DNA of 64,000 nucleotides, from contig CP166130.1 in assembly GCA_041228335.1 (NCBI GenBank), forward strand, positions 1,760,638 to 1,824,637, written 5' to 3'. The notes below the pieces were generated by a model. That model saw only the letters and a list, made by a program, of their open reading frames with translations. It had not been told where the DNA came from and made no database searches. The position numbers and the translations under genes were made by a program. Position 1 is the stretch's first letter. Every line of letters starts with the position of its first letter. This document shows positions 6,767 to 42,666 of the stretch, piece by piece. This stretch comes from Alphaproteobacteria bacterium LSUCC0684 (GTDB lineage Bacteria > Pseudomonadota > Alphaproteobacteria > Puniceispirillales > UBA1172).

Positions 6767-6805
6767 GATGCTACCCTCGATTGGTTCCGGATTGCGGCCG
6801 CAGCA

Positions 6806-7567
6806 TTACGCTGCCGCCACGCTTTCCTGCAGTTTCGGCGGCAGGTTGGCGATCATCTGATCCTGAATATTACGCGGGGACTCGCCGCGGGCGATATTCT
6901 TGAGCCCGATCACCACCATCTCGCGATAGACGGTCTCATAGGCGGTGTAGCCCTCAAGCTTGGTGACCATCGGCGCGAACATGATATTGGCGATAAACGC
7001 CCCGTAAAGCGTTGTCAGCAAGGCCACCGCCATCGCCGGGCCAATCGCCTTCGGATCCGCCATGTTCCCGAGCATGAGCACGAGACCGATCAGCGTGCCG
7101 ATCATCCCCATGGCCGGGGCCAGATCCACCCAGGCCTTGAGCACGCCCTGGTTGGCTTCGTGGCGCGACCGCATCGCCTTGATTTCCTGATTGAGCTGGG
7201 TGGTCAGTTTGGACTCATCGGCGCCATCGACCAGCATCTGCAGCCCTTTGGAGAAAAACTTGTCCGGCACATCCTGGCCTTCAAGCGCCATCATGCCGTC
7301 TTTACGGGCAATCCCCGCAAGCTCGACCATGCGGGTGACCAGTTCATCCTGTTTTTTCACCGGCGGCAGAAAGACTTTGGCCATCACGCCAAAACTGCCG
7401 AGAAAGACCCCGAGCGGGGCGGTGTACATCACCGCAAAGAACGTCCCGCCAAAGACGATGAGAATGGATGGCACGTCAATAAAGGGCCCGACGCCACCAC
7501 CGGAGATCATCGCCCCGACAATCATGCCGACCGCGCCCAGAAAACCTACTAATGATGCAATATCCAT
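6806..7567 (-). CDS. pomA: Flagellar stator subunit, PomA/MotA type
   Basis: Four-helix stator subunit that turns ion flow into torque on FliG. Length 253, as expected for PomA. The N-terminus MDIASLVGFLGAVGMIVGAM and the following VDVPSILIVFGGTFFAV closely follow the Na+-type PomA pattern. The cytoplasmic loop (about residues 60-140) carries charged residues, and helices 3-4 contain LVLMLGNMADPKAIGPAMAVALL. It is the first gene of a two-gene unit with the OmpA-domain partner and has a sigma-54-type promoter 43-59 bp upstream of its ATG. Confidence 0.94.
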   Translation of the reverse strand: MDIASLVGFLGAVGMIVGAMISGGGVGPFIDVPSILIVFGGTFFAVMYTAPLGVFLGSFGVMAKVFLPPVKKQDELVTRMVELAGIARKDGMMALEGQDVPDKFFSKGLQMLVDGADESKLTTQLNQEIKAMRSRHEANQGVLKAWVDLAPAMGMIGTLIGLVLMLGNMADPKAIGPAMAVALLTTLYGAFIANIMFAPMVTKLEGYTAYETVYREMVVIGLKNIARGESPRNIQDQMIANLPPKLQESVAAA

Positions 7568-7609
7568 AGCTAAAAACCGTGACGTTCAAGTAAACTCAGC
7601 CAGTGATCC

Positions 7610-11314: not shown

Positions 11315-12214
11315 TCAGTCGCGTTCCTTCAGCACGGTGATCAGCGCGTTGACATGTTCCTCGGAAAGGTGGAACTCACGACGCATCTGCTCAATTTTCT
11401 CCATCTCGTCCTCGGTCAAAAGGCCATCGCTGAGGGCGTGGGCGATCTCGGCCTCGATGATCATCTTGCGCTGGGCAATCTGGTTGGAGAAGGCCGAGGC
11501 AACGATACCTGTCAGCATCGCCACCACGCATACCCCCATGAGCGCGGTGATGGCGCCGACGATCCGGCCGACCGGCGTGATCGGCGAGACATCTCCATAT
11601 CCGACGGTGGTGAGGGTGATCAGCGACCACCACATCGTCTCGGGAATGGAGGAAAACTTGTCCGGCTGGGCTTCGTTTTCCACCAGATACATGACCGCGC
11701 TCGACATGAAGAGCGCGATCAGCAAAAGATACATCGCCGCGCCAAAAGAACTGAGCTCGGATTTGACCGCCGTCAAGAGATCCTCGAGCGCCGAGGAATA
11801 ATGCGAGATCTTGAAGAGCCGGACAAGACGCATGGCGCGGAGCCAGCGCAGATCCATGTCGCCGATGAAAAGCGGCAGGATACTCGGCAGAATGGCGAGA
11901 AGATCGATCAGCCCGGTGAAACTGAAGATATATTCGAGCCGCCGGGCGGAAGCCGAGGTGTATTTGCTGGTCTCATTGGCTTTGCTCGCCCAGATGCGCA
12001 GCAGATATTCGATCCCGAAGATGGTGACCGACAGCATCTCAAAGGCGAAGAACTCATCGGCATAGGCAATGCTCAGACGGTCGATAGATTCCAGCGAGAT
12101 CGCAACGATATTGAGGATGATCAGCAACCCGAGCAGGCGGTCCACCATCATGCTTGCGCGGTCATCCTTGCTGCCGCGTTCAAGAATTTGAAGCATGCGT
12201 TGTTGCGTGATCAT
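11315..12214 (-). CDS. Voltage-gated-type potassium channel
   Basis: A 299-residue six-helix ion channel subunit. Helices S1-S4 occupy about residues 25-150, with an arginine-bearing S4-like segment (DLRWLRAMRLVRLFKIS). The pore loop carries the K+ selectivity filter TTVGYGD near residue 210, followed by the last helix. A short helical, charged C-terminus (about residues 255-299) follows. It is an inner-membrane protein. The channel itself has no ligand-binding domain, but two stand-alone CNB proteins are encoded just downstream. Confidence 0.9.
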   Translation of the reverse strand: MITQQRMLQILERGSKDDRASMMVDRLLGLLIILNIVAISLESIDRLSIAYADEFFAFEMLSVTIFGIEYLLRIWASKANETSKYTSASARRLEYIFSFTGLIDLLAILPSILPLFIGDMDLRWLRAMRLVRLFKISHYSSALEDLLTAVKSELSSFGAAMYLLLIALFMSSAVMYLVENEAQPDKFSSIPETMWWSLITLTTVGYGDVSPITPVGRIVGAITALMGVCVVAMLTGIVASAFSNQIAQRKMIIEAEIAHALSDGLLTEDEMEKIEQMRREFHLSEEHVNALITVLKERD

Positions 12215-16399: not shown

Positions 16400-16471
16400 T
16401 GGTAGCTTCGGCACTGACTTTTACCCCCGACACGCGGGTTGTGATTTCGCTGTACCAGCTGTAATCTCCGC
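16400..16471 (-). pseudogene. Decayed tRNA-Met copy, left edge of island
   Basis: Aligns end to end with the intact minus-strand tRNA-Met genes. It begins TGGTAGC, keeps an exact 15-base block around the T-arm (ACCCCCGACACGCGG, 16423-16437), then TGATTTCGCTG, ACCAGCTG and TCTCCGC, with several mismatches and a small deletion. The anticodon loop reads as mutated. It is interpreted as the oldest attachment-site remnant. Confidence 0.65.
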
Positions 16472-17378: not shown

Positions 17379-17605
17379 TATTAATTCCTGTTCTTTTAAT
17401 GAGATTAACCAACACATATTGTGTCTAACCAAAGAATTGGTGTCAAGTAATTGATTTTATTGCTTTTTATTAGATTTTTCTAATGTAATTCAAACGTAGA
17501 CCAAACACCAACAATAACAACAAATCGTCCCTTTAACGATGATTTTGAAGTGATGTTTGTGTCTACCCACTGGAGGGTGTCTTTTCGGAGGTGTGGAACC
17601 AAAAT

Positions 17606-17650
17606 TGGTAGCGGAGGAGGGACTTGAACCCCCGACACGCGGATTATGAT
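17606..17650 (-). pseudogene. tRNA-Met 3' half (attachment-site copy)
   Basis: These 45 bases are identical to the 3' part of the tRNA-Met at 42294-42370, from CCA through the T-arm to the anticodon loop, then diverge abruptly. The T-loop base matches the 42-kb copy, not the 30.8-kb copy. This is the displaced 3' end expected when an element integrates by crossover near the anticodon loop. Confidence 0.85.
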
Positions 17651-29383: not shown

Positions 29384-30127
29384 TTGGATATTGCTCGTTC
29401 AACGCTGAACTACAAGGCGGTTCAGCACGATGATGATGCCCTACGCTTGGCCATGATGAGATTGGCCAAGGCGTATGGCCGCTACGGCTATCGGAAGATA
29501 ACTCAGTTGCTGCAGATCGAGGGCTGGAAGGTCAACCACAAGCGAGTAGAACGATTATGGCGTGAAGAAGGGTTGCAACTTCCACAGCGTCACAAGAAAC
29601 GAAAACGCCTGTATCACAAAGACAGCTCTGTCATCAGGCTAAGACCTCAGCATTCAAATCATATTTGGTCGATTGACTTTGTCCACGATAAGCTAACAAA
29701 TGGACGCAGCTACAAAATGCTGACCGTTATCGATGAATACACACGAGAAGCTTTGTGCGTGGCCGTCAGGCCGAAGATGAATGCCAATGACGTGCTGGAC
29801 GTATTGTTTGATCTGATCCTTAAGCGAGGAAAACCAAGGTTCATCAGATCGGACAACGGCCCCGAGTTCATTGCAGAGCATCTTCAAACTTGGCTTAGGA
29901 AGGTTGGCATCGAGCCAATCCAAATCTATCCAGGCTCGCCTTGGGAAAATGGCTATAACGAGCGCTTCAATGGCACGTTACGCAATGAAGTGCTAAACGC
30001 AGAATGGTTCCACACTGTCCATCAAGCGCAAACTGCAATCAATGTATGGCTCCGCCAATACAATCACATCAGACCACATCATGGACTAAATATGCGACCG
30101 CCCGTACCTGAAACACTAGTAGAGTAA
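29384..30127 (+). CDS. IS3-family transposase OrfB (DDE catalytic part)
   Basis: This is the catalytic half of the transposase. 247 residues are read from TTG 29384, but the frame is open back to about base 29248 and overlaps orfA in the -1 frame, so the real product is probably an OrfAB fusion or starts further upstream. The integrase core shows all three acidic residues: SIDFVHD, RSDNGPEF and GYNERFNGTLRNE. It appears intact, so the IS may still be active. Confidence 0.9.
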   Translation: MDIARSTLNYKAVQHDDDALRLAMMRLAKAYGRYGYRKITQLLQIEGWKVNHKRVERLWREEGLQLPQRHKKRKRLYHKDSSVIRLRPQHSNHIWSIDFVHDKLTNGRSYKMLTVIDEYTREALCVAVRPKMNANDVLDVLFDLILKRGKPRFIRSDNGPEFIAEHLQTWLRKVGIEPIQIYPGSPWENGYNERFNGTLRNEVLNAEWFHTVHQAQTAINVWLRQYNHIRPHHGLNMRPPVPETLVE

Positions 30128-30159
30128 TCGAAAATTAGTGGCACAGAAAATTGGGGCTA

Positions 30160-30679
30160 GACAATGTGTCTTGTTCATAAAACCACGCGCAACACTCTCA
30201 TCAAACACTCTGTTAAGGGCAGAGTTATGTGTATTCAGCGTTGATGCTTTGGGTTCTCTGCCCATCTGCTGTTCGCGCCAGCGTGAAAACTTTTGGAGTG
30301 TTTCATAGGTGATGCTGGTGACATGCATCTTGCCAAAGAACGGAATTAGATATTTCTCAAGCACGATCACATAGTCGCGATAGACTTTCTTGCCAACGCC
30401 ACTTTCCAGCTGCTTGTTCATTTCTGCGATGCACAGTTTAGCGACATCCGAGAAGCGTTTGGACACAACTGGCACGCCATTCTTCTGATGAAACTTGTAT
30501 TCCAAATAGCTGTCAGAGGCAGCCTGCTTGGCTTCGTCTAAATCGCTCTTACCTGTTGAAATGCGAATGTATTGGCCGTCGATTTGGAAGGCTGCTTGCC
30601 ATTTGCGGCTTCTCTCACGCCTGTAGAGCTTGACGGCTCCATCCATAATCAACACAGAATCTTCACGCAAAACAGGCAT
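30160..30679 (-). pseudogene. Element B integrase, catalytic domain deleted
   Basis: The N-terminal part of a tyrosine recombinase: an arm-binding-like segment (residues 10-60) and a SAM-like core-binding domain (KLCIAEMNKQLESGVGKKVYRDYVIVLEKYLIPFFG). After FMNKTHC the frame runs into the IS, which supplies the last 14 residues and a stop. The R, H-x-x-R, H and Tyr catalytic residues are absent, so it cannot recombine DNA. It lies 143 bp from the tRNA-Met at 30822-30898, the normal position for an integrase next to its attachment site. Confidence 0.85.
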
Positions 30680-30759: not shown

Positions 30760-30821
30760 CGCAAAAATCGCCTCAAGATCTTCTTTGAGACGCTGCAATA
30801 CATTGATAATATTAGGAGAAA

Positions 30822-30898
30822 TGGTAGCGGAGGAGGGACTCGAACCCCCGACACGCGGATTATGATTCCGCTGCTCTAACCAGCTGAGCTACTCCGCC
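30822..30898 (-). tRNA. tRNA-Met (CAT), middle copy
   Basis: A 77-base cloverleaf with encoded CCA. The anticodon stem GCGGA/TCCGC encloses the loop ATCATAA (anticodon CAT). The T-loop is TTCGAGT, one base different from the other copies (TTCAAGT). The body resembles elongator tRNA-Met of alphaproteobacteria rather than initiator or lysidine tRNA-Ile. Its upstream flank is island DNA, so whether it is transcribed is unclear. The attachment sites of elements B and C both fall here. Confidence 0.9.
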
Positions 30899-31259
30899 CC
30901 GGGATTAAAGCATGGTTTCCTGTCAGTATTGTTTGCAGGCTTACACCCTCAAATCATGTTGTCCCTGATACCAGTGTGGCACAGCTGTGGCAGAAAATAA
31001 ACTCTCCTCACCCACGCATGGGCCACCCCACCCCTAGTGCATATGCCTAACACGATTGCTGGCGATTGGCATTTTTTTAGTTATCTGTATGAGAAACAAC
31101 ATACAAAAACATAGAACAAAGAGAATTGGGTTTGCGGCGGCAGAATAATTGTTTAGCGAATTGTTATTCATACACATAATCCCTTAAGCTATCTTGCAAT
31201 CTCCAACTATTCAATAACTTGGCTTGCCACGCAGCAGTTACCTGTATGGCAAACACCCG
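30899..31259. other. 361-bp gene-free left end of element C
   Basis: No gene is seen. It holds the paired TGTGGCA repeats (30975-30992) and AT-rich sequence towards the metallopeptidase gene. It is probably an attachment-site arm region. Confidence 0.65.
30975..30992. repeat. Paired TGTGGCA repeats, left end of element C
   Basis: TGTGGCA at 30975 and 30986, spaced 11 bp, about 77 bp inside the left attachment site. The same word with the same spacing occurs at the right end (42228 and 42239). Confidence 0.55.
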
Positions 31260-31964
31260 TTACTTGAGTGACATTTCCAGCCTGTGCTTCAAGCGTTGCC
31301 AATTTGGTGATTTCTGTTCAAGCAAATGCCAAAAAGTGGGGCCGTGATGGGGATGCTCAATGTGGCAAAGTTCGTGCAAAATTACATAGTCGATACATTC
31401 CACAGGCGCACGCACAAGGTCAGGATTTAAAGTCAAAACTCCTTTGGGAGACATGCCACCCCACCGGGATTTAAAACGCTTCAATACCAAACTTGGAGCA
31501 GGTTTATCTGGAAAGCGTTTCAGGCACTCTTCCAGTCGTCTATTAAACAGGTCAGCCGCCCGTTCTTTATACCACCCCATCATTAAGGACATGGCTTTTT
31601 CAGAAGAGGGTATTTTCATAGTCACATGAAAGAAACGCCCTTTCAGCTTCACTCCCTCTGATAGCCCTTGATGAAACTTCAACCGATACTGCCGGCCAGT
31701 ATATAGATGAGTTTCGCCAGCAACAAACTGGCGAGGCGGCGTCAGCGGTTTGAACTGGTTGAAATAATCAATCTGTCTTTTTATCCAACTGGCTCGTTTG
31801 CGAAGTCGATTTTTAATGTCTGAAACAGCTGCACCCAGCGGGGCCAACGCCACAATCGAACAATCAGGCAGGACTGAAATCGAAAGTGTCTTCCTTTCAC
31901 GATATTCAATCTGCACATTAAAGGTGTTCGACCCATAGTTGACCAAAATTGTTTGACCAGTCAT
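31260..31964 (-). CDS. YgjP-like zinc metallopeptidase in the RM operon
   Basis: A 234-residue protein of the COG1451/YgjP-like group. The conserved C-terminal block has VLTLNPDLVRAPVECIDYVILHELCHI with the zinc motif HExxH (His197-His201). A further histidine before GPTFW (near 207) is the probable third ligand. It overlaps the end of hsdR by 4 bp and is the last gene of the operon. Such peptidases are often found beside type I restriction genes, but their role there is not established. All predicted metal ligands are present. Confidence 0.85.
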   Translation of the reverse strand: MTGQTILVNYGSNTFNVQIEYRERKTLSISVLPDCSIVALAPLGAAVSDIKNRLRKRASWIKRQIDYFNQFKPLTPPRQFVAGETHLYTGRQYRLKFHQGLSEGVKLKGRFFHVTMKIPSSEKAMSLMMGWYKERAADLFNRRLEECLKRFPDKPAPSLVLKRFKSRWGGMSPKGVLTLNPDLVRAPVECIDYVILHELCHIEHPHHGPTFWHLLEQKSPNWQRLKHRLEMSLK

Positions 31965-34900
31965 GACAGACGACGCTCTGCGATTGTCATAATGTTTTCT
32001 ATGATAATGTCCATCTGCTCAGGGGAGAGACTTACTCCTCGCTCATCCAGCAACACGTCATACATGTAATTATCAATCGCCAGTCTTATTTCATTCAACT
32101 TGGCCGTCTGCTGGAAGAGTTGCGGGACATTACGATATGCATCCAATGTCTGACTGATGAATTTTGCAAAGGCGATTTGTGTGTCTTCATCTGCACCAGC
32201 ATCCTTTGTGGGGCCAGTCAACAGATACCCATGATAAGCTGCGGCATTTGCATCATCAGCCAGAGCGTTTGGCGTTTCTTCCAGCCCCTCAGACAGCACC
32301 GTGCTATGAATGTTACGTACCCTTTTCAGATATTCTGCCTCTGCATAACGCCCTTGAATAAAATCATTAATCAAGGTCTCAAGCATATCTGACAGCTTTT
32401 TATACAGGGCAGGGTTCTCTTCCATCTTCTCTGTGATGGTTCGTTTTGTGGAATGAGCAATGAAGTCCGCTTTTGCCCGGTCAGAAGGGAGTTTTTCTTC
32501 GGTTTTTTTCATCATCTCCAGATTAAAGATATTCACAGGTTCAATAACGAGTTCGATATCAGTTGCGCCAATATGGTCATGCAGAATTTTCTCGATGCGC
32601 TTTTCATAATCACTGAAATCTACCTCTTCAGCATAGCGGCGTTTAACAGCACTTCTGAGATTTGTGAAACGCTTCAGGTCGCGCTTATACCGGTGGATAT
32701 CTGCTTCAGGTGTTTCATCATAGAAACGGGCCGCCCCTAATGCAGCGGCCAGAGCCTTACCATAAGCGGTCAGGCGACAATAGAAATCCTCTCGGATGGC
32801 ATCATCAGCCAAGAAAACTTCATAGGCTTCTTCATCTGCATTACCATCAAGAGACTGAAACAATGCCCTAAGATGACTGTGGGTTTGTGGCAGCTTGTCT
32901 AAAATCTCACCCACATTACGCATCAAGCCTTCAAGGTCTTTTTCCTCATATCCAGCAAGCGCATCATAGTGACTGAAGGCTTCATCCAAATTTTCTAAAA
33001 CACCCTCGTAGTCTACAATGTAGCCTTCATCTTTATCCGTGTTGAACTCATCACTGTCTGAATCCAACACACGGTTCACTCGGGCAATCGCCTGCAACAG
33101 ATTATGTTCTTTCATCGGCCGCGTGAGATAAAGAACCGTATTGCGCGGGGCATCAAACCCGGTCAGCAGCTTGCTCACCACAATGATGATTTCCGGGTCT
33201 TCCCCATGCTTGAACTGGTTGATGATATATTCGTTATATTTCTCTTCATCACCATAGCGGTTCATCATCTGCTGCCAGAACTCAACAACCTCGTCTGTTG
33301 CTTTGGCTTCGTCAACAGCATCATGCCCTTCCCGAGTATCTGGGCTGGATATCAGCACTTCACTTGTCACATGGCCGATATCATCCAGTGCGGCTTTATA
33401 TTTCAGGGCAGCCGCCTTGCTGGGGGCAACAAGCTGTGCCTTTAGCCCTGTCCCTTTAAAGTTGGCACGGAAATGCTCCGAGATATCGAAAGCACGACAG
33501 GCGATGACCTTATCCAGTTTTCCCAGCATATTGGCTTGGGCATATTTCTTTTTCAGGTCAGCCTTTTGCGCGTCTGTCAGGCCGATGGTCAACCGTTCAA
33601 ACCATGTATCCAGCCCTTTAGAATCCATATCAGGCTTAATCAGGCGGCCTTCATAAACCAGAGGCACCACCGCGCCATCTTCAACCGCATCACGCATCGT
33701 GTAGGTATCGATAATCGGGCCAAATTCGGACATGGTGTTTTTGTCTTTTTTGGCGATGGGCGTACCGGTGAAGGCAATATAAGTGGCGTTTGGAAAAACA
33801 CGCCGCATCTGTGCGCTGAAGCGGCCATACTGGCTGCGGTGACCTTCATCCACCAGAATAAACACATTTGATGACTCGTCTCGCAACTGGTCACGGGCAG
33901 CGGCCTCAAACTTGTTGATGATGGTAGTAATCACCCCAGCTTTTCGTTCTGCAATCAGGGAAATCAGTTCCTTGCCTGTTGCAGCCCGTTTGGGTGACAT
34001 CCCGGTATTTTTAAAAGTGCCTTTAATCTGTTTGTCCAAGTCTACACGGTCGGTGACCAGCACAATCCGCGCATCATTCAGCGTGCTATGAGAGATAAGC
34101 GCACGGGCCAGCATCACCATCGTAAGGGATTTACCTGAACCTTGTGTGTGCCAAATCACGCCACCCCTGCGGTCCCCTCCACCTTCAACACGGGCGACTG
34201 TCTTGCGCACAGCCTCAAACTGCTGGAACCGACTTATGATTTTATGTGGACCATCAAACAGAATAAATTCACGTGTCAGGCGCAGCAGCCTGTCCGGACG
34301 GCATAACCCCACCAACGCCCGGTCTTGGTCTGTTATCAACCGGCCTAATTGAGAATCATCAAACGCCCTTTCCCCGGCGAAATCATCACTGAATAAAGCA
34401 TTACGCTGGTCATCTGATAAAGGCGTATCTATCAGGGCGCGCAAAATAGCATCACCAATTTCATTTTCTTTCCAGATATTCCACAGCTTGGCTGGTGTGC
34501 CGGTCGTGGCATATCGGTTTTCGTTCTTGTTCACGCTCATTAAGATTTGCGCATAGACATAAAGATGCGGAATCTCGTCTGGTTTCTGGTTCCGAATTGT
34601 CTGGCTGATGCCCTGTGCCACATCCGTTGCAGATTTTTTATTTTCAATCACCGCCATCGGGATGCCATTAACGAACAGCACGATATCGGGGCGTCTGGTA
34701 TCGACCGATTTGCTGCGTTCCACCGAAAACTCTGCCGCCATATGAAACTGGTTATTTTCAGGGTTATCAAAATCAATCATTGGCACGTTATGGCTGCGGC
34801 GGGTGCCGTTAATCACTTGCTCCACGCTTTGGGGCAGGCACAGCAAATCCCATTTATCTTCCGCCTGTTTGCCATAAGTTGCTGGCGGCAGATTTTTCAG

Positions 34901-35167
34901 CCGCACCATCAGGGTTTCAATATTATCTTCAGACAAAGGCGCATCTTGCCCTGCCCAATTGAGGCGGCGGGTGAGCAGATAATCACGTGTAATATCTTCT
35001 AAAATAACGGCACTGGTGCGACCTTTGCGGGCAGAATTAGCCTGTGCTTTAGTCAAAGGTTGCCAGCCCATTTTTGCCAGTAAAATCATGGCAGGCAATT
35101 GGCTTGTTGCAATTTCATCAGTTCGAAAAGTAGGAGTTCTGGTCATGATTTTGTTATGATGCCTCAT
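31961..35167 (-). CDS. hsdR: Type I restriction enzyme, R subunit
   Basis: The motor and nuclease subunit of a type I restriction complex. Length is 1068 residues from the first ATG, or 1061 from MTRTPTFRT (35146), which avoids overlap with the previous gene. The nuclease domain near residue 170 has RRPDIVLFVNGIPMAVIENKK (Asp...Glu-x-Lys type). The helicase part has Walker A HTQGSGKS near 340 and the DEGH box LVDEGHRSQYG near 440, with TGTPI and a RAIARVNR-like motif VI (LLQAIARVNRV). A helical C-terminal region for complex assembly follows. It looks intact. Confidence 0.95.
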   Translation of the reverse strand: MRHHNKIMTRTPTFRTDEIATSQLPAMILLAKMGWQPLTKAQANSARKGRTSAVILEDITRDYLLTRRLNWAGQDAPLSEDNIETLMVRLKNLPPATYGKQAEDKWDLLCLPQSVEQVINGTRRSHNVPMIDFDNPENNQFHMAAEFSVERSKSVDTRRPDIVLFVNGIPMAVIENKKSATDVAQGISQTIRNQKPDEIPHLYVYAQILMSVNKNENRYATTGTPAKLWNIWKENEIGDAILRALIDTPLSDDQRNALFSDDFAGERAFDDSQLGRLITDQDRALVGLCRPDRLLRLTREFILFDGPHKIISRFQQFEAVRKTVARVEGGGDRRGGVIWHTQGSGKSLTMVMLARALISHSTLNDARIVLVTDRVDLDKQIKGTFKNTGMSPKRAATGKELISLIAERKAGVITTIINKFEAAARDQLRDESSNVFILVDEGHRSQYGRFSAQMRRVFPNATYIAFTGTPIAKKDKNTMSEFGPIIDTYTMRDAVEDGAVVPLVYEGRLIKPDMDSKGLDTWFERLTIGLTDAQKADLKKKYAQANMLGKLDKVIACRAFDISEHFRANFKGTGLKAQLVAPSKAAALKYKAALDDIGHVTSEVLISSPDTREGHDAVDEAKATDEVVEFWQQMMNRYGDEEKYNEYIINQFKHGEDPEIIIVVSKLLTGFDAPRNTVLYLTRPMKEHNLLQAIARVNRVLDSDSDEFNTDKDEGYIVDYEGVLENLDEAFSHYDALAGYEEKDLEGLMRNVGEILDKLPQTHSHLRALFQSLDGNADEEAYEVFLADDAIREDFYCRLTAYGKALAAALGAARFYDETPEADIHRYKRDLKRFTNLRSAVKRRYAEEVDFSDYEKRIEKILHDHIGATDIELVIEPVNIFNLEMMKKTEEKLPSDRAKADFIAHSTKRTITEKMEENPALYKKLSDMLETLINDFIQGRYAEAEYLKRVRNIHSTVLSEGLEETPNALADDANAAAYHGYLLTGPTKDAGADEDTQIAFAKFISQTLDAYRNVPQLFQQTAKLNEIRLAIDNYMYDVLLDERGVSLSPEQMDIIIENIMTIAERRLS

Positions 35168-36050
35168 AGGATTGCTGGATAAGGGGTTTGGCCCGCTCTA
35201 AATCCGCGTCAGAAGAAATGGTGATTTCGATATTGCCTGTGCCGTAATGACCAATCTCACGGACATCACGGCTAAACCCTTCAATCAGTTCAATGTCATC
35301 AGGGTTGATTTGAATGAAAACCATAATGTTGTTTCTCTGATTACGCAGCTCAACACAGGCGAAGTTCTTAATGCGTTTAAAAGCCACATAGCGCTGTAGA
35401 TGTCTTTCCTGCACATCATCGCCGAGCGAGTGGAGGTAGTCGACCAACGCTTCATACCGTTCTTTCTGCTCGCTTGAAGCGGCGGCGATGATATCCTCAT
35501 GGTCTTTTTGTGTGCTGCGTCCGCTGCTATTTGATGGGGCTGTCGGCGTTGTGCCGGTGGTTGCGGTTAGCAAATCCAGCATCAGCAAATCATCGCCAAA
35601 TTTACGATAGCGGATAAGTTCAATATTCCGGTTCATCTGTTTGACCGCGTGCGTATCGTAACGCTTGAAATCTCCTGCGATACACACAAGGCGCGGGGCA
35701 GACCAGTCAATGGCGTCTGCTGCTTCTTTACCGATTTTTTCCATAACCAGCAGTTTGAAATCAGACTGGTTCTCCATCAGCAAGTCGAGATAGAACAAAC
35801 CCTGTACTATGATGGATTCATTTGTTTGGCGTTTATATTCAATGATGACAGGACAGTTATTTTCATCCAGCCCTAGTGTATCAATTCGCCCATCCTTGAT
35901 ACTGTATTCAGAGACTAGAAAGCGCACACCAATCAAGGCATCAAGGTTACGCTCAAATAGCGTTTGAAGTGACTTCTCCAGTTCTATAACCGCACCATTA
36001 ATTTCGTTCACAGTCTGGCCGTTGAGATTGAAGAGTTTGATATCGCTCAT
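35154..36050 (-). CDS. NucS-like/DUF5655 putative nuclease inside the RM operon
   Basis: A 298-residue protein. The N-terminal 150 residues resemble the NucS/DUF91-type nuclease fold: GRIDTLGLDENNCPVIIEYK gives Asp57, Glu71 and Lys73, the D...ExK pattern of PD-(D/E)xK enzymes. After a Thr/Ser/Pro linker (about 160-180), the C-terminal part resembles DUF5655 (YLHSLGDDVQERHLQRYVAFKRIKNFACVELR). The gene is inserted between hsdS and hsdR with overlaps on both sides, so it is made together with the restriction complex. A second DNA-cleaving activity is inferred. Confidence 0.8.
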   Translation of the reverse strand: MSDIKLFNLNGQTVNEINGAVIELEKSLQTLFERNLDALIGVRFLVSEYSIKDGRIDTLGLDENNCPVIIEYKRQTNESIIVQGLFYLDLLMENQSDFKLLVMEKIGKEAADAIDWSAPRLVCIAGDFKRYDTHAVKQMNRNIELIRYRKFGDDLLMLDLLTATTGTTPTAPSNSSGRSTQKDHEDIIAAASSEQKERYEALVDYLHSLGDDVQERHLQRYVAFKRIKNFACVELRNQRNNIMVFIQINPDDIELIEGFSRDVREIGHYGTGNIEITISSDADLERAKPLIQQSYEAS

Positions 36051-37204
36051 GCCGCCCCCTTCACGCGCAGCTTGCCCGTCAGCAATTGCTGCATTAGCCC
36101 ACGTTTTTGTTGTTTGAGAAGGTTGAGTTGAGAATCCAGTTTGAGAAGTTCTGATTGCGCTTCTTGCAAAACAAGAACTGCTCTTTTCAATTCATCATTG
36201 TCCATCGGAAAAGGTAAAGTAAATTTGAGAACAGATGACTTATCCACGGCTGTGAATGTGCTACCCTGTTGAACAGTTTTCCATTTTGCTTTCATCGCTA
36301 TCAGAGAAAAACGAATATAATCCCTACTCATTTCAGACTTTGGTTCAATGGCACAAAACCCTCGACCAATGCATAAGTCTGAGTCTGAAATAGCAATGTC
36401 CCCAACTGGCGCACGAACTGTCATTAAGACAGAACCTTTAGGCGCAATTTTTGACGGCTGAATGGTATATCTTGATGGATTAACAAAACCGTCTTTAATG
36501 TCATCTCCGCCACCTGCGAGAGGCAACCCTGTACCAACATCGTTATAGCTGGATGCTGGCGGTGATTGCCCCATTGTCACATTAGCAACTTTTTCTAATG
36601 AACATTCCTCTATTGAATTGAGGTTTCGTGAAAATTGGTCTGGTAGCCCTTCAAACAGCTTCTTCTTATGTAAAATGATAGATTGCAAATCACTTATCGC
36701 GGTGTCGCAATCGGTAAGGATTTCAACGATTTTCTGCTGCTCTGCAAGTTCAGGGAGCCATAATGAAAGCTGTGACAATTCTTGCGCATAAATATGAACA
36801 ACTGAATTGCCTGTAGCTAATTTAAATTTCTGTCTATTCAACTCCCATGAATTAAGCATATGAGCTAAATAAATAGGGTCTTGCCCATGCCCCCTTAAGA
36901 TAATTGTATCCCCGCCCACATATGTTTCTTCTTGCCCAACAAATGCTGATGCTTTCCCAATTTCTTCTGCTGTTTCACCAGAAGTGGGGAAAATAATGTC
37001 TCCATATTCTAACTTTTGTGCGTCTGCGGCAGCATCACTTGACACCCTTGAAATAGGGTTACGGATAACCTCACCATATTCGGTGTAGATTTCAGCATAT
37101 CGGATGCAGGATAGACCGCCTTCGTCAACAAGGTCAGATTTAGCTATACCTTTACCACGAATGAAGTTGCCCAACGTACCCAACTGAACTATTGCGTCGC
37201 TCAT
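36047..37204 (-). CDS. hsdS: Type I restriction enzyme, specificity subunit
   Basis: A 385-residue DNA-recognition subunit with two target recognition domains (about residues 5-150 and 200-350). Each is followed by a helical spacer (LPELAEQQKIVEILTDCDTAISDLQ and the C-terminal AVLVLQEAQSELLKLDSQLNLLKQQKRGLMQQLLTGKLRV). The layout is the standard full-length HsdS, so a bipartite target is expected; the bases cannot be read from the sequence. It overlaps hsdM and the nuclease gene by 4 bp each. Confidence 0.94.
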   Translation of the reverse strand: MSDAIVQLGTLGNFIRGKGIAKSDLVDEGGLSCIRYAEIYTEYGEVIRNPISRVSSDAAADAQKLEYGDIIFPTSGETAEEIGKASAFVGQEETYVGGDTIILRGHGQDPIYLAHMLNSWELNRQKFKLATGNSVVHIYAQELSQLSLWLPELAEQQKIVEILTDCDTAISDLQSIILHKKKLFEGLPDQFSRNLNSIEECSLEKVANVTMGQSPPASSYNDVGTGLPLAGGGDDIKDGFVNPSRYTIQPSKIAPKGSVLMTVRAPVGDIAISDSDLCIGRGFCAIEPKSEMSRDYIRFSLIAMKAKWKTVQQGSTFTAVDKSSVLKFTLPFPMDNDELKRAVLVLQEAQSELLKLDSQLNLLKQQKRGLMQQLLTGKLRVKGAA

Positions 37205-38727
37205 ACCCCCAGCTCCTTCAGATGCTGGCGCAGGCGCGCGCGGGTCTCGGCCAGTTCTTTGTCAAGCCTGTCAATCTCGGCTTGAACGGCGGCAAGGTCG
37301 ATTTCTTCTTCCTCTTCGAACGTATCCACATAACGCGGGATGTTGAGGTTAAAGCCGTTCTCCACCACCTCATCAAAACTGGCCAGATGGGCGAATTTCC
37401 CCACCTCTTCCCGCGCTTCAACTGCAGCGACAATCTTGTCAATATGCGCATCAGTCAGGGTGTTCTGGTTACGGCCGGATTCGAACTCGTTACTGGCATC
37501 AACAAACAGGATATCTTTCTGGTCTGTCAGCGCGCCGCCTGCTTCCCGCCGCAAATCAAAGACCAGCAAGGCAACTGGAATAGCGGCGGTGGAGAACAGC
37601 TTTTCCGGCAAGCCAATGACGGCATCAAGCAGGTTTTCTTTCAACACCGCTTCACGGATACGCCCTTCGGCCGCGCCGCGGAACAACACCCCATGCGGGA
37701 CCACAACCACCACCCGGCCAGATTGCCGCTTGGCGGTGGCCAGCATATGCAGGATAAACGCCCAGTCGCCCTTTGATTTGGGCGGCACGCCGCGACCAAA
37801 ACGGCCATATTGGTCTGATGCGGCATCCTCTGCCCCCCATTTATCAAGGCTGAATGGCGGGTTGGCAACCACACGGTCAAAGCGCATCAGGCGGCCTTCA
37901 TCCAGCAATTTGGGGTCATTAATCGTATCGCCCCATTCAAGCACCGCATCATCAACGCCATGCAAGAACATATTCATCTTGGCCAATGCCAGCGTGCCGC
38001 CATTCTTTTCCTGCCCGAACAGGCGGCAGGCACCGCCTTCAACCTCACGCCCGGTATCAAGGGCCAATGAGCCTGACCCGCAAGTAGGGTCACATATCAG
38101 ATTGCCGGGTTCTGGTTTCGCCAGTTTGGCGACCAATCGGCGAACCGGTGAAGGGGTGTAAAACTCACCTGCCTTCTTGCCCGCATCACTTCCGAAGCGT
38201 TCAATCAGATACATATAGGCTTCACCAATAATATCTTCCTGAATACGAGATGGGCGCAAATCAAGACGGGGGTTCGCGAAATCTTCCAGCAGGTTTTTCA
38301 GCAGCCTGTTGCGGTCTTTGGTGGTGCCCAATTTTTGGTTATTGAAATCGATGTCTTGAAATACGCCATTCAGTTTCGGGCGGTTCGCCGCTTCAATCTT
38401 TTCAATGGCGATGTTAATCAACTCACCCACATTATCCGCATTGCGGCTTTGATGCAGGGCGGTGAAGGACGCATCCTCAGGCAGAATAAAGCGTTCCAGA
38501 CGCATGGCTCGCTCCACGCGTTCCGCATTGCCGTTATATTGTGCCATATACTCATCATAATGGTCGCGCCAAACATCAGAGATGTATTTGATGAACAGCA
38601 TCACCAGAATGTAGTCCTTGTATTGACCACCATCGATAACGCCGCGGAAGGTATCGCACGCCCGCCAACAGATATCATTTACTTCCTGTTGAGTCAGTTT
38701 TTCGTTGTTTGGTGTTTTGTCTGCCAT
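37201..38727 (-). CDS. hsdM: Type I restriction enzyme, methyltransferase subunit
   Basis: A 508-residue adenine-N6 methyltransferase that protects host DNA and forms the complex core. The HsdM N-terminal helical domain occupies about residues 1-150 (CWRACDTFRGVIDGGQYKDY). The AdoMet motif I is DPTCGSGSLAL near 215 and the catalytic NPPF motif is near 290 (VVANPPFSLDKWG). A coiled-coil C-terminus ends near QHLKELGV. It follows the short S-like gene by 8 bp and overlaps hsdS by 4 bp. It looks intact. Confidence 0.95.
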   Translation of the reverse strand: MADKTPNNEKLTQQEVNDICWRACDTFRGVIDGGQYKDYILVMLFIKYISDVWRDHYDEYMAQYNGNAERVERAMRLERFILPEDASFTALHQSRNADNVGELINIAIEKIEAANRPKLNGVFQDIDFNNQKLGTTKDRNRLLKNLLEDFANPRLDLRPSRIQEDIIGEAYMYLIERFGSDAGKKAGEFYTPSPVRRLVAKLAKPEPGNLICDPTCGSGSLALDTGREVEGGACRLFGQEKNGGTLALAKMNMFLHGVDDAVLEWGDTINDPKLLDEGRLMRFDRVVANPPFSLDKWGAEDAASDQYGRFGRGVPPKSKGDWAFILHMLATAKRQSGRVVVVVPHGVLFRGAAEGRIREAVLKENLLDAVIGLPEKLFSTAAIPVALLVFDLRREAGGALTDQKDILFVDASNEFESGRNQNTLTDAHIDKIVAAVEAREEVGKFAHLASFDEVVENGFNLNIPRYVDTFEEEEEIDLAAVQAEIDRLDKELAETRARLRQHLKELGV

Positions 38728-38735
38728 CTTGTCCT

Positions 38736-39284
38736 CTATCGGTTGAATACGCTGCTGCGAAGGTATTCTTCAGCTGCATAAAAATAGTCAGCGGCCAGTT
38801 CTTTGCCAGCATCGATTTCATCACTCACTTGAATGATTTTTTCCTGAGATGCTCTATCAGGCATTGGCACATCTAGGTTACGTAAATCTCGAATGGAAAC
38901 GCTCTTTATCATATGCGTTTGTTGAGTCATTCGGTCAAAATTAGTGTTATTTAACACCCATGCCAAATATCGCGGTATGACATCAGAATGTGGCCGCACC
39001 ACAATAAATCCATTTGTAACGATAGTTTGTTCGGGTTCATGCATTAGTGCAAAAGCTTCTAAAACGTGACCACGGGATTTGAACAACACATCACCCTTTC
39101 GAATAAATTTGTCAGGGTTGCTAACGCTCATATCAGTCCGTTTCAGGCCGGTTAACTTGATGTGCTCTTTTGATACATCCCGAAGCTGAATTACAGTTGT
39201 GCTGCCTAACTCGGCAAAGTTTTGACTGCTTAAGGAGAAACCCGTAAACAATTCACCGCATTCTGAAATCTTTCGCTTTGCCAT
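38736..39284 (-). CDS. Half-length HsdS-like protein
   Basis: A 182-residue protein from ATG 39284 (MAKRKISECGELFTGFSLSS); a TTG seven codons upstream is less likely. It has the fold signs of one target recognition domain: TVIQLRDVS, FIRKGDVLFKSRG, VTNGFIVVRPHSDVIPRYLAWVLNN, then VSIRDLRNLDVPMPDRASQEKIIQVSDEID and one spacer helix. There is no second domain. It lies directly upstream of hsdM in the same operon as a full hsdS, so the complex could exchange or share recognition parts. The function is inferred. Confidence 0.75.
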   Translation of the reverse strand: MAKRKISECGELFTGFSLSSQNFAELGSTTVIQLRDVSKEHIKLTGLKRTDMSVSNPDKFIRKGDVLFKSRGHVLEAFALMHEPEQTIVTNGFIVVRPHSDVIPRYLAWVLNNTNFDRMTQQTHMIKSVSIRDLRNLDVPMPDRASQEKIIQVSDEIDAGKELAADYFYAAEEYLRSSVFNR

Positions 39285-39317
39285 TACACTAATCCTGCTT
39301 GCCAAGCATCCTAAACG

Positions 39318-39656
39318 TTAATGCCAAGTTTTTTTGACACGTTTCCGATAATGGCGACCTGCTTTCCCCGATTTCATATGCATTACGGTAACCACTTTGG
39401 TTTCGTCATTATCATTACTTACCACCACAGATTTGCCCGTGATTTTTTCAACCATTTTTGGTGCCAGCGTCCCTTCCTCTCCCAGACGGATTGCGCATCG
39501 CTTTGTTACCGATACGGAGACCAATCCCTTGCCAACGGGGACTTCTTTATCGGCATATCGAATGATGGTTGTTACCACCGATTTTCTTATGCCTCTTTGC
39601 TGCAACCTTACTGTTGCATGTGCGCCAAATTCGATATCGTCAAACGTTTCGTCCAT
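39318..39656 (-). CDS. DUF4258-like small protein at head of RM operon
   Basis: A 112-residue basic protein whose N-terminal half fits the DUF4258 pattern (FGAHATVRLQQRGIRKSVVTTIIRYAD) and whose end is very basic (GRHYRKRVKKTWH). DUF4258 is linked to small RNase-toxin-like folds, but its function is open. It precedes the half-length S gene by 33 bp on the same strand and is probably the first gene of the operon, so a regulator or toxin-like addition to the restriction system is possible. Confidence 0.65.
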   Translation of the reverse strand: MDETFDDIEFGAHATVRLQQRGIRKSVVTTIIRYADKEVPVGKGLVSVSVTKRCAIRLGEEGTLAPKMVEKITGKSVVVSNDNDETKVVTVMHMKSGKAGRHYRKRVKKTWH

Positions 39657-39809
39657 GATTTTTGACCTTTCGTTTCTGCCTACAATTGTCGTTATGACAC
39701 TTGATTATACCATTGTCAACACCTAATTTCGTATTTCTGCATATTGTAGGACAAAAATAAATTACAGAATACCCCAAGTAAGGGCCGCCCCAACCAACCT
39801 TAGGGGTAT
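39657..39809. promoter_or_regulatory. Divergent promoter region, RM operon and polymerase-like gene
   Basis: The region separates the minus-strand RM operon from the plus-strand polymerase-like gene. It holds an inverted repeat TGTC-N5-GACA (39687-39699). On the plus strand TTGATT-N17-TAATTT is possible; on the minus strand TTGACA-N17-CATAAC. These elements overlap, so a single regulator could control both directions. Confidence 0.35.
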
Positions 39810-41237
39810 ATGAATGGTGATGATATGAACAATACAAAGCAAAGAGAGACGCTAACCACTCTCCTCAACGACAAGAATAGCGAACGATACATCAACGAAG
39901 AAGAGATTGAGATTTATGAGACTGGAGGCTTCTTTGAAGATGATGAAGACTGGCATTGTTTCATTCGAGAAAGAAAAGCACAAAGCCTTGATTACTCTCG
40001 CCCCTTGAACTTGAACATTATGGCCTCTAGTACAAAATGCACTTCTGGCATCAATGAACTGAGCCAGCGCATCCTAAGCCATACCAATAGGCGACTATAT
40101 CAGCCCAGCCGAATACAGTTGAACTGTCTGCTGGCAAATCTGTTTTTCAATTATGCGCAGTCATCCAATCTTTGGACAATTGTGTCACGTGCACATGAAG
40201 GTGCCATCATCAAAAAATACAACCCAATGGGCCTGAACAATGAAACGATGGCCCGCCTGTGTGATGCGATGGCTGACCTGCAGTTTCTGGATAAGGAAAT
40301 TGGCTATCGAGAAACAAGCAAAGGCAAAAAGGATGGCCACCTAACCAGAATAAGAGCCACTGAGGACTTAATCAAACTGCTAAAGAATCATGGATGGGAA
40401 CACAGTATCCTGCATTACCACCCTGACACGATTCCAGTCGTTATGAAAGAAACGCCAGAGGGGAGAAAGACCAGCAAGCCAGTTGACTATGTGGATACTG
40501 AAACAACAAAGACTACCAGCGAACTGCTTTGGGATTATCATCACTTTCTGCGGAGACGAGAGATACTTCTGCCAACATTACTTGGCGATAAGGTTCCTGA
40601 CCTTATCTTTATGCGGCAAATCTTCAGCAATAACTCATGGCAGGAAGGTGGCCGTCTGTTTGGCGGGGCCTATCAGCAGCTGTCTGAAGACGAGAGAGAA
40701 ACCATTACGATTGATGGCGACCCGGTTGTAGAAATAGATATAGCGTCTTGCCATGCAACAATGGCTTTTGCAGAGGCAGGTCGAGATTGGTTCAAAACCA
40801 GCAATCAAGATATTTACCAGCGTGATAACCTTTCTCGCTGGCCTCGAAACGTCATTAAACGAGCGTTCAATATTGCCATTAATACCGAAAATAAGAAAAA
40901 AGCTATTTCAGCCCTCACCAATGCAGATAATAAAGAAGGCTGGTTTCATAACCACAAGCACCTAAAGACACCGGGCTGGCAGAAGGTGCTGCTAGATGAG
41001 ATGCAAGATGCATATCCTGAAATAACCCACCTCTTTTTTAAAAGAAGAGGCATGGTCTACATGCGGCAGGAAGGTGAGATAGGCTTGCGCATCATTGCAG
41101 ATGGTATGAATCGCGGCATACCTGTTCTTACCCTGCATGACAGCTTCATTGCCCCTAAACAACATGAAGCTACTTTATGTGCCATCATTTCAGATGCTTT
41201 TGAAACTGTGGTTGGAATTAGTTGTCATCTGAAGTGA
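39810..41237 (+). CDS. Polymerase-like protein (family A/T7 RNAP-type motifs), unrecognised
   Basis: A 475-residue protein. The N-terminal 270 residues are helical and match no family I can name. The C-terminal half has three motifs in the order and spacing of single-subunit polymerases. Motif A is VVEIDIASCHATMAF with Asp310. Motif B is RNVIKRAFNIAINTE with Lys350 and Arg351. Motif C is LTLHDSF with His443-Asp444, as in T7 RNA polymerase and family A DNA polymerases. A GGRLFGG stretch precedes motif A. No exonuclease domain is seen. ATG 39810 follows AGGGG. It sits between the RM promoter and the convergent integrase (20-bp overlap). A replication or priming role for the element is inferred. 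Confidence 0.75.
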   Translation: MNGDDMNNTKQRETLTTLLNDKNSERYINEEEIEIYETGGFFEDDEDWHCFIRERKAQSLDYSRPLNLNIMASSTKCTSGINELSQRILSHTNRRLYQPSRIQLNCLLANLFFNYAQSSNLWTIVSRAHEGAIIKKYNPMGLNNETMARLCDAMADLQFLDKEIGYRETSKGKKDGHLTRIRATEDLIKLLKNHGWEHSILHYHPDTIPVVMKETPEGRKTSKPVDYVDTETTKTTSELLWDYHHFLRRREILLPTLLGDKVPDLIFMRQIFSNNSWQEGGRLFGGAYQQLSEDERETITIDGDPVVEIDIASCHATMAFAEAGRDWFKTSNQDIYQRDNLSRWPRNVIKRAFNIAINTENKKKAISALTNADNKEGWFHNHKHLKTPGWQKVLLDEMQDAYPEITHLFFKRRGMVYMRQEGEIGLRIIADGMNRGIPVLTLHDSFIAPKQHEATLCAIISDAFETVVGISCHLK

Positions 41238-42210
41238 CCCTCGTTAATTTGCGTCTCAGCATCTGAACATCCGCATGGGCATATCTCAGCAACATTGTTG
41301 GGGTTTGATGCCCGGTGATAGATGCAACTTCCGGCACAGTTAAACCCATCTCGAAAAATCGTGATGTGGCCTCATGGCGTAAATCATGTAAGCGCAGGTC
41401 TAATATGCCCGTGCGTTTCCTCAACCGCTGCCAAGCAGATTTTACTGCCTCATAATTGGTTGGCAAAATCCTGTCTGATGTCCGAGATATCGATAAAATC
41501 ACCTGATTAGCGCGAGGCGTTAGCGGAACAAATCTGTCTCGCCCATTCTTGGTATCAATAAGATGCAGGATGGCCTCTTCCTCATTCCAGTCAGCCCATT
41601 TCAGTTTCAACATCTCCCCTGCCCTCATCCCAGTCTCAACAGCAAGCAAAATCAGAGCAGGCATATAAGCACTTCCAGACTCGTTTGCAGCCGCCAGCAA
41701 CACATCCAACTCTCCAGCCTTCAGACGCCTGTCACGGGGCTTTGAAGGGGCAGGAAACCGCACTTTATCAAGAGGATTTTCCTTAATACTCACACCCCAT
41801 TCAGATGAGGCTATGTTCAATGCATGCCTTATAATTTGCAGGTCATATGCTGCTGCCCTTTGTCCATCTAGAAGCCTTCTATCTCTGAATTTGGACAGCG
41901 TTTCGGGTGTAAGGTCACGGATACGATATTGACTGATAGGGTCTTTTAAAAGGCGTGCTATTCGCCTGCTTTCACTTGCTGCTGACTTTTTCTGAGGCGT
42001 TACCTCTGCCGCATATCTTCCCAGCAACTCTGTAAGGGTCTCTTTGACAGGCAGGGCGATGCCAGCCTCTGATGCATTAAGACGAACCTCTTGGCTTCGT
42101 CCCCATGCTATTGCCTCTTCTCTGCGGTGAAATGTTTTTGTGATACTAGAATAGCCTGCGCGTCTTATCTGCACCTGCCATTTATTTCCCCTTTTACGTA
42201 TGTTTGCCAT
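41218..42210 (-). CDS. int: Tyrosine integrase of element C, intact
   Basis: A 330-residue site-specific recombinase from ATG 42210 (MANIRKRGNKWQVQIRR); the frame is open 28 codons further, up to the tRNA, but that extension lacks a good start. An N-terminal arm-binding domain (residues 1-55) is followed by a SAM-like core-binding domain (about 60-160) and a catalytic domain with Arg in ETGMRAGEML, LRLHDLRHEA, TGHQTPTMLLRYAH and the tyrosine in RYAH. It reads away from the tRNA, 84 bp from it. All catalytic residues are present, so element C may still excise. Confidence 0.93.
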   Translation of the reverse strand: MANIRKRGNKWQVQIRRAGYSSITKTFHRREEAIAWGRSQEVRLNASEAGIALPVKETLTELLGRYAAEVTPQKKSAASESRRIARLLKDPISQYRIRDLTPETLSKFRDRRLLDGQRAAAYDLQIIRHALNIASSEWGVSIKENPLDKVRFPAPSKPRDRRLKAGELDVLLAAANESGSAYMPALILLAVETGMRAGEMLKLKWADWNEEEAILHLIDTKNGRDRFVPLTPRANQVILSISRTSDRILPTNYEAVKSAWQRLRKRTGILDLRLHDLRHEATSRFFEMGLTVPEVASITGHQTPTMLLRYAHADVQMLRRKLTRVTSDDN

Positions 42211-42226
42211 ATCAAACACCCCTTGT

Positions 42227-42247
42227 GTGTGGCAAGGGTGTGGCAAG
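42227..42247. repeat. Paired GTGTGGCAAG repeats, right end of element C
   Basis: GTGTGGCAAG occurs at 42227 and 42238, 11 bp apart, between the integrase start and the tRNA. The core TGTGGCA and its spacing match the pair at the left end of the element (30975-30992). They are probable arm-type binding sites of the integrase. Confidence 0.6.
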
Positions 42248-42293
42248 ACGGCTTTGTGCCGACCATCAACAAACAAAAATCGTAGGAAAATCA

Positions 42294-42370
42294 TGGTAGC
42301 GGAGGAGGGACTTGAACCCCCGACACGCGGATTATGATTCCGCTGCTCTAACCAGCTGAGCTACTCCGCC
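42294..42370 (-). tRNA. tRNA-Met (CAT), right copy and probable original locus
   Basis: A 77-base cloverleaf with encoded CCA and anticodon CAT (loop ATCATAA), T-loop TTCAAGT. It resembles the elongator tRNA-Met of alphaproteobacteria. Its upstream side is core, GC-rich DNA, so this copy most likely keeps the native promoter. Its 3' side is element C. Confidence 0.92.
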
Positions 42371-42666
42371 CCGGGCCGCGTCCTATCAAGGACCCGCGAG
42401 AGCTTTCTTCTAGGCAATTCCCGCCCGGCGGTCAAGCGTGTTTTCACGCTATCCCACCTGTTGCCGCACACCTGCCGCCGCACGCCCCGACCCCATCGCA
42501 AGACCTGATATCTCACAAAGCCCGCGGCCGACCAAAGACAAGGTATCCCTGCAAGGCCCGCCGCAACCAAAAGATACGAAAGCCCCGTTATCGCGGCTGG
42601 CCCGACCTTTTCGCAATATTCGCAATCATCGCAAGCCGCAATCTCGACACAACTCGATGCGCCCAT
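42361..42666 (-). CDS. Possible small cysteine-rich membrane protein
   Basis: An open frame of 101 residues. The N-terminus has four cysteines in CVEIAACDDCEYC (residues 6-18), followed by a hydrophobic stretch (about 24-50) and an arginine-rich tail. It follows mnmA on the same strand after 54 bp and ends 10 bp inside the tRNA gene, which weakens it. No family is recognised. The rest of the 350 bp between the tRNA and mnmA shows nothing else. Confidence 0.3.
   Translation of the reverse strand: MGASSCVEIAACDDCEYCEKVGPAAITGLSYLLVAAGLAGIPCLWSAAGFVRYQVLRWGRGVRRQVCGNRWDSVKTRLTAGRELPRRKLSRVLDRTRPGAE

Follow-up and report, generated by a model that had tools for sequence, protein, structure and literature searches.

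An island between two tRNA-Met copies

The window (the whole 64,000-nt stretch of the genome of Alphaproteobacteria bacterium LSUCC0684 that was analysed) contains an element that runs from tRNA-Met to tRNA-Met (30822–42370) and encodes a 475-residue protein, here called the polymerase, whose position, strand and length were confirmed as given in the preliminary description. The island comprises the following features:

30821–30903, − strand: left 83-bp repeat with a second complete tRNA-Met (30822–30898), the other end of the island
31260–39305, − strand: cargo genes for a YgjP metallopeptidase, HsdR, a DUF5655/NucS_C-like protein, HsdS, HsdM and a partial HsdS (type I restriction-modification, RM; Pfam)
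39318–39656, − strand: small DUF4258-like protein (Pfam E=4.5e-5, just below the cut-off)
39810–41237, + strand: polymerase gene, 475 aa (ORF, phrog_4756 match, motif conservation, AlphaFold2 (AF2) model and PDB fold matches)
41218–42294, − strand: tyrosine integrase (Pfam Phage_integrase, E=7.4e-24)
42293–42375, − strand: right 83-bp repeat with a complete tRNA-Met (42294–42370), the att site beside the integrase, next to mnmA

The two 83-bp repeats are 99% identical and lie 11,472 bp apart, which gives an island of about 11.5 kb, and the GC content between them is 0.45–0.48 compared with about 0.56–0.62 to the right. The integrase gene begins at the 3′ end of tRNA-Met and runs into the last 20 bp of the polymerase gene, the two lying tail to tail, while the DUF4258-like gene sits between the RM genes and the polymerase gene and is divergent from the latter. 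No co-oriented neighbour of the polymerase gene was found among the ORFs and Pfam matches of the island. A Pfam scan of 30822–42370 agreed with the earlier remark that the element has no other replication gene; HsdR was the only helicase, with no replicative helicase detected. The island also showed neither an origin nor a gene for an SSB-like partner, and the surroundings of the polymerase gene contained no direct or inverted repeats that could mark an origin. The island carries the type I RM genes as cargo. Within them, the DUF5655 protein with the NucS_C-like nuclease match (35154–36050) is inserted between HsdS and HsdR, and a half-length second HsdS (38736–39305), perhaps a spare specificity half, adjoins HsdM.

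Beside the left tRNA-Met lies an N-terminal integrase fragment (30116–30679) adjoining an IS3-type transposase, together the remnant of a neighbouring island. Partial tRNA-Met copies occur at 16416–16452 and 17601–17650 and, with the full copies, span 26 kb of lower-GC DNA; the full and partial copies mark islands arrayed in tandem at a single attachment site, the shorter pieces suggesting that the site took up several islands. A 45–50-nt 3′ piece of tRNA-Met is found again in genomes belonging to the same order, and in one genome (G109) the same tRNA-Met stands beside mnmA, with the contig ending right there.

Motifs and predicted fold of the polymerase

The polymerase gene starts with the ATG at 39810, with an in-frame ATG at 39825 as an alternative start, and its stop codon ends at 41237. 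Neither Pfam, NCBIfam nor PADLOC gave a match to the protein even at E=10, while the PHROGs profile phrog_4756 matched residues 140–473 (E=2e-42), placing both in the same protein family under the PHROGs label 'unknown function'. The protein had been described as unrecognised, which holds for Pfam, NCBIfam and PADLOC, whereas PHROGs contains its family and TV-Pols have featured in the literature since 2008. Because the match to an independent profile is joined by relatives in phages, plasmids and genomes, the ORF is more than a chance reading frame; the gene is real and belongs to a widespread family. Five segments of the protein are referred to below:

39993–40505, + strand: N-terminal domain, residues 62–232, winged-helix-like at about residues 97–200 (separate AF2 model; Foldseek and VIA matches)
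40647–40664, + strand: hairpin strand, residues 280–285, carrying R282 (conservation, AF2 model and TV-Pol literature)
40719–40763, + strand: motif A, residues 304–318, with invariant D310 and with H315 (conservation, AF2 model)
40845–40883, + strand: motif B/O-helix, residues 346–358, with R346-x3-K350, N354 and N358 (conservation, AF2 model)
41127–41156, + strand: motif C, residues 440–449, LTLHDSFIAP, with H443 and D444 (conservation, AF2 model)

Conservation was counted over 143 full-length relatives. Both D310, which stands in the context VEIDIASCH, and D444 are present in all 143, followed by K350 (142/143), R346 and H443 (141/143 each); also near-invariant are R282 and R296 (142/143 each) and Y336 (141/143), while the fingers Asp D334 is kept in 134/143 and S445 of motif C in 126/143. 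D310, K350, H443 and D444 had thus been rightly picked as residues of motifs A, B and C, since all four are conserved across these relatives. The proposed pairing of Lys350 with Arg351 stands for its first member, whereas position 351 is variable (R, K, Q, L, T) and K350 is instead partnered by the conserved R346, which gives the R-x3-K of family-A polymerases. Lack of conservation of the motif residues among homologues, which the preliminary description had named as grounds for giving up its reading, was not seen in these 143 proteins.

The AF2 model of the full polymerase, built from an 80-row alignment (A3), reached a mean pLDDT of 88.1 and a pTM of 0.84. In this model D310 and D444 lie on palm strands, R346 and K350 lie on helix 346–358, and R282, the template-strand Arg of TV-Pol and Pol I, lies on a predicted β-hairpin strand; for the thumb, which in TV-Pols consists of two antiparallel helices, one helix (231–248) was assigned. 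The best Foldseek match in the PDB was the Bst Pol I fragment 1xwl (E=3e-5), with apicoplast and Taq DNA polymerase I fragments matching more weakly. VIA-align ranked the apicoplast polymerase apPol (9qsc_A) first (Z 13.1, rmsd 3.5 over 232 residues, 13% identity), and its best 50 matches were all family-A DNA polymerases. Against viral models, phage relatives came first, followed by proteins annotated as DNA polymerase I. This fold link rests on the model, since a sequence search of solved structures returned only a chance match (APOBEC3H, E=1) and a profile search of solved structures with the polymerase family returned none. The fold search bears out the earlier proposal of a family-A/T7-type palm, and where a predicted fold without a palm had been considered, a family-A palm was modelled. 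No Pol I-type nuclease was detected by Pfam, and the 475 residues include no exonuclease.

The N-terminal part had been thought to contain no recognisable domain, but residues 62–232 modelled alone (pLDDT 91.6, pTM 0.86) as a winged-helix-like domain. Its Foldseek and VIA matches were weak (best E 0.02, Z about 7) and mostly to winged-helix proteins, among them MarR, PadR, GntR, a replication terminator and many eS10 ribosomal proteins, and we read them as indicating a fold class rather than a relationship to the matched proteins. The modelled domain is probably the DNA-binding part, and its occurrence in the polymerase would be a new detail.

Matched by motif spacing, D310 and H315 presumably correspond to D705 and E710 of Pol I, and K350, N354 and N358 to K758, F762 and Y766; N358 is likewise taken to sit at the position of Y639 in T7 RNA polymerase. 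The residue at the steric-gate (E710) position is His in 120 of the 143 relatives and that at the O-helix Tyr766 position is Asn in 126, matched in the same way. With His in place of the steric-gate Glu and Asn in place of the O-helix Tyr, the choice between dNTPs and NTPs is therefore not readable from sequence; the putative sugar-selecting residues His315, Asn354 and Asn358 are unusual and are a new detail.

These substitutions bear on whether the polymerase might be a single-subunit RNA polymerase of the T7 kind, transcribing the island genes or making RNA primers. Replacement of the Pol I steric-gate Glu by His and loss of the O-helix Phe would suit such an enzyme, as would the HDS of motif C, which resembles T7 RNA polymerase (S445 in 126/143), and the finding that the commonest, though weak, Pfam match among family members was the T7-type RNA_pol (4/80), this model having no match to the polymerase itself. 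We nevertheless regard an RNA polymerase as unlikely: the top fold matches are DNA polymerases, 475 residues leave no space for the T7 promoter-recognition domains, the T7 Tyr639 is Asn in this protein, and a characterised TV-Pol, CCPol, favours dNTPs (PMC7581432).

Relatives and their genomic settings

Using tblastn, relatives at 21–27% identity were found in 37 phage records and two plasmids (Paracoccus, Thioclava), the phage hosts being Vibrio, Aeromonas, Klebsiella, Pseudaeromonas and Shewanella. The phrog_4756 relatives belong to large Vibrio, Aeromonas and Klebsiella phages, with no integrase beside the gene in the phage loci read. Among genomes of the same class, 19/289 had a match to the polymerase. 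Single-sequence scans of viral and genome contigs with the polymerase gave no match because this member is too divergent, while an 8-row alignment of closer relatives yielded 237 confirmed stretches in genomes (79 loci kept) and 29 viral-contig loci; among the matches listed of the 237, nearly all were alphaproteobacterial, with SAR116 and Rhodobacteraceae prominent.

A tyrosine integrase was the constant partner of the polymerase gene, occurring within the fetched flank in 47 of 81 chromosomal loci (including this island and a second copy in the source genome), a count that is a lower limit because many contigs are short. At L076 and L140 the integrase gene directly adjoins the polymerase gene in convergent orientation, at distances of 10 and 88 bp, respectively. 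When island bounds were defined by a copy of the tRNA's last 22 nt (≤2 mismatches) beyond the far side of the polymerase gene, islands with both polymerase and integrase were delimited at nine loci (L075, L103, L106, L114, L115, L131, L132, L136 and L139), ranging from 3.4 kb (L132) to 12 kb (L106) and lying at tRNA-Leu, Gln, Thr, Val and Gly genes. These related islands have polymerase and integrase in common, not RM, and some appear to carry little else. A resolvase cluster was found near the polymerase gene in 8 loci. Across 125 neighbour proteins the commonest Pfam families had 3–5 members each, with no other constant gene; RM genes were rare and defence-like matches scattered. At three tRNA-Leu islands (L075, L078 and L114), one large convergent gene of 592–602 aa lies between polymerase and integrase.

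The source genome carries a second TV-Pol-like gene (L175: 8555–10078) on an island of its own (L175: 7234–13948; G000:C1 at about 607.7–614.4 kb), with an integrase adjoining tRNA-Thr. The second copy is flanked on both sides by a 108–116-aa ORF with a shared start (7234–7581, − strand; 11564–11887, + strand), perhaps an inverted repeat sequence.

The same settings bear on the earlier suggestion that the polymerase forms an anti-phage defence module with the adjacent type I RM genes, a suggestion to which one plasmid relative, lying beside a methyltransferase and an AbiE pair, might also lend some weight. However, the polymerase and RM genes point in opposite directions, PADLOC gave no match, phages themselves carry homologues, and among homologues' neighbours integrases are common (47/81 loci) and RM rare (125 neighbour proteins), with cargo varying between islands. 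These neighbour tallies led us to reject the view that polymerase and RM genes work as a functional unit, and we consider a defence module highly improbable.

Phage loci offer a different kind of context. In Shewanella phage KASIA (L028) the relative (5734–7083) lies between genes for a primase, an RNA polymerase and an AAA ATPase and the terminase gene, a location in the replication region that favours a function in replication. Phage relatives occur in genomes that carry other polymerases, which allows for an accessory role.

In the family tree a long branch (1.78 changes per column) leads to the polymerase, which lies close to sequences from phages and viral contigs, its exact place being unsure, and some near-invariant residues are replaced in it (N244 by H, R270 by Q). 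The long branch and the missing near-invariant residues mean that this copy could be decaying or specialised. That it is a decaying relic of an immobile island, with no present function, would also accord with the older-island remnants at the tRNA-Met site, including the integrase fragment at 30116–30679, but the ORF is full-length, every catalytic residue is kept, the integrase ORF is intact and the two tRNA copies are 99% identical, and we judge a functionless relic to be rather improbable.

Proposed replication of the island and comparison with known systems

We consider it likely that the polymerase is a TV-Pol-type, family-A/T7-type enzyme and serves as the replication enzyme of the small tRNA-Met integrative island, and the earlier proposal of a priming enzyme or replicase for a small integrative element is supported as likely. 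Under this reading, excision by the integrase would yield a circular island, the winged-helix-like domain at the N-terminus would bind island DNA for origin recognition, and the C-terminal palm would prime and/or extend the new strand, such that the excised island could be copied before reintegration or transfer. The remaining functions would come from a helicase and polymerases of the host, invoked because the island has no replicative helicase. More tentatively, and with rather low probability, the N-terminal domain and palm could constitute a one-polypeptide initiator-primase-polymerase that begins DNA synthesis on the island that carries it and works without a separate primase or SSB partner. 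If so, the altered pocket, with its His at the steric gate and Asn for the O-helix Tyr, would permit both ribo- and deoxyribonucleotides, or obey an unknown selection rule, and no self-priming enzyme related to Pol I and T7 RNA polymerase would be simpler than this protein.

A proposal of 2008 held TV-Pols to be primase-polymerases close to the ancestor-like state from which family-A DNA polymerases and T7-type RNA polymerases derive (PMC2579912), and in 2020 the authors of the CCPol study were aware of no other characterised TV-Pol (PMC7581432). The alphaproteobacterial and phage branch, being large and common on tiny tRNA islands, would provide a simple test ground for this proposal, its sugar-gate residues are unlike those of both Pol I and T7 RNA polymerase, and the polymerase could act as a marker gene for finding small tRNA islands.

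The polymerase shares with Pol I and apicoplast Pol the palm and fingers fold and motifs A, B and C (Z 13, 13% identity), but differs from Pol I in the absence of the 3′–5′ exonuclease domain, in HDS rather than HDE in motif C and in Asn for Tyr766. From T7-type RNA polymerases it differs in having N358 for the O-helix Tyr639. PICMI, other marine phage satellites and tycheposons are likewise small tRNA- or att-bounded islands with an integrase and a priming gene; the PICMI primase is of the DUF3987/DUF5906 type and is accompanied by AlpA and Fis genes (PMC10803314), whereas of int, alpA, fis and that primase only the integrase was found by Pfam on this island.

CCPol of SCCmec, placed among the TV-Pols by the 2008 paper (PMC2579912), is a distant TV-Pol relative of this polymerase. 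This family-A DNA polymerase is active and primes de novo when bound to its partner MP, on which priming depends, and it prefers dNTPs and retains the Pol I residues E710 and F762 (PMC7581432), whereas the polymerase has H315 and N354 at these positions by motif spacing. Bacillota are known to have related PolA-SSB pairs, with RM-carrying islands (PMC10061031). Like the enzymes of the CCPol-MP and PolA-SSB systems, the polymerase has a family-A palm and belongs to a genomic island that carries a recombinase; those systems have an adjacent OB-fold partner and a helicase, both lacking here.

The closest correspondence is with the TV-Pols as described by Iyer, Abhiman and Aravind in 2008, enzymes of 400–600 residues found on mobile elements in Rhodobacterales and other groups, with a thumb, a hairpin Arg, two palm Asp, a fingers Asp and RxxxK and without nucleases, and predicted to act as primase-polymerases for mobile elements that replicate (PMC2579912). 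One subset has an N-terminal domain, is linked to a gamma-delta-resolvase, lambda-type integrase or transposase, and sits in hot spots with RM operons, so that integrase-linked alphaproteobacterial elements near RM genes were already part of the family (PMC2579912). The polymerase and its setting agree with this description in almost all points compared: the equivalent residues (D310 and D444, R282, D334, R346/K350), no Pol I-type nuclease, linkage to a lambda-type integrase or resolvase, RM-rich integration hot spots and many hosts in Rhodobacterales and other alphaproteobacteria. Two differences concern the N-terminal domain, winged-helix-like with β wings in our model and predicted to be all-helical in the TV-Pol subset, and the D5-like helicase, present in one TV-Pol subset and absent from this island, although D5 linkage is not required for the integrase-linked subset (PMC2579912).

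A direct link to a previously listed member was weaker. Searching the whole Ma-LMM01 record with a profile gave no significant match, and a sensitive local search ranked MAP_030, located beside transposases, first (E=0.6). We take MAP_030 to be the Ma-LMM01 member of the TV-Pol paper, and the family matches it weakly (BLASTP E=2e-6 for a single pair; hhalign E=0.002, probability 13%; hmmsearch E=0.6). The polymerase fits the TV-Pols because motifs, context and host range agree with their description. The idea of a new kind of enzyme thus gives way, TV-Pols having been described in 2008, and the polymerase is best seen as a new, previously unannotated member of that known family.
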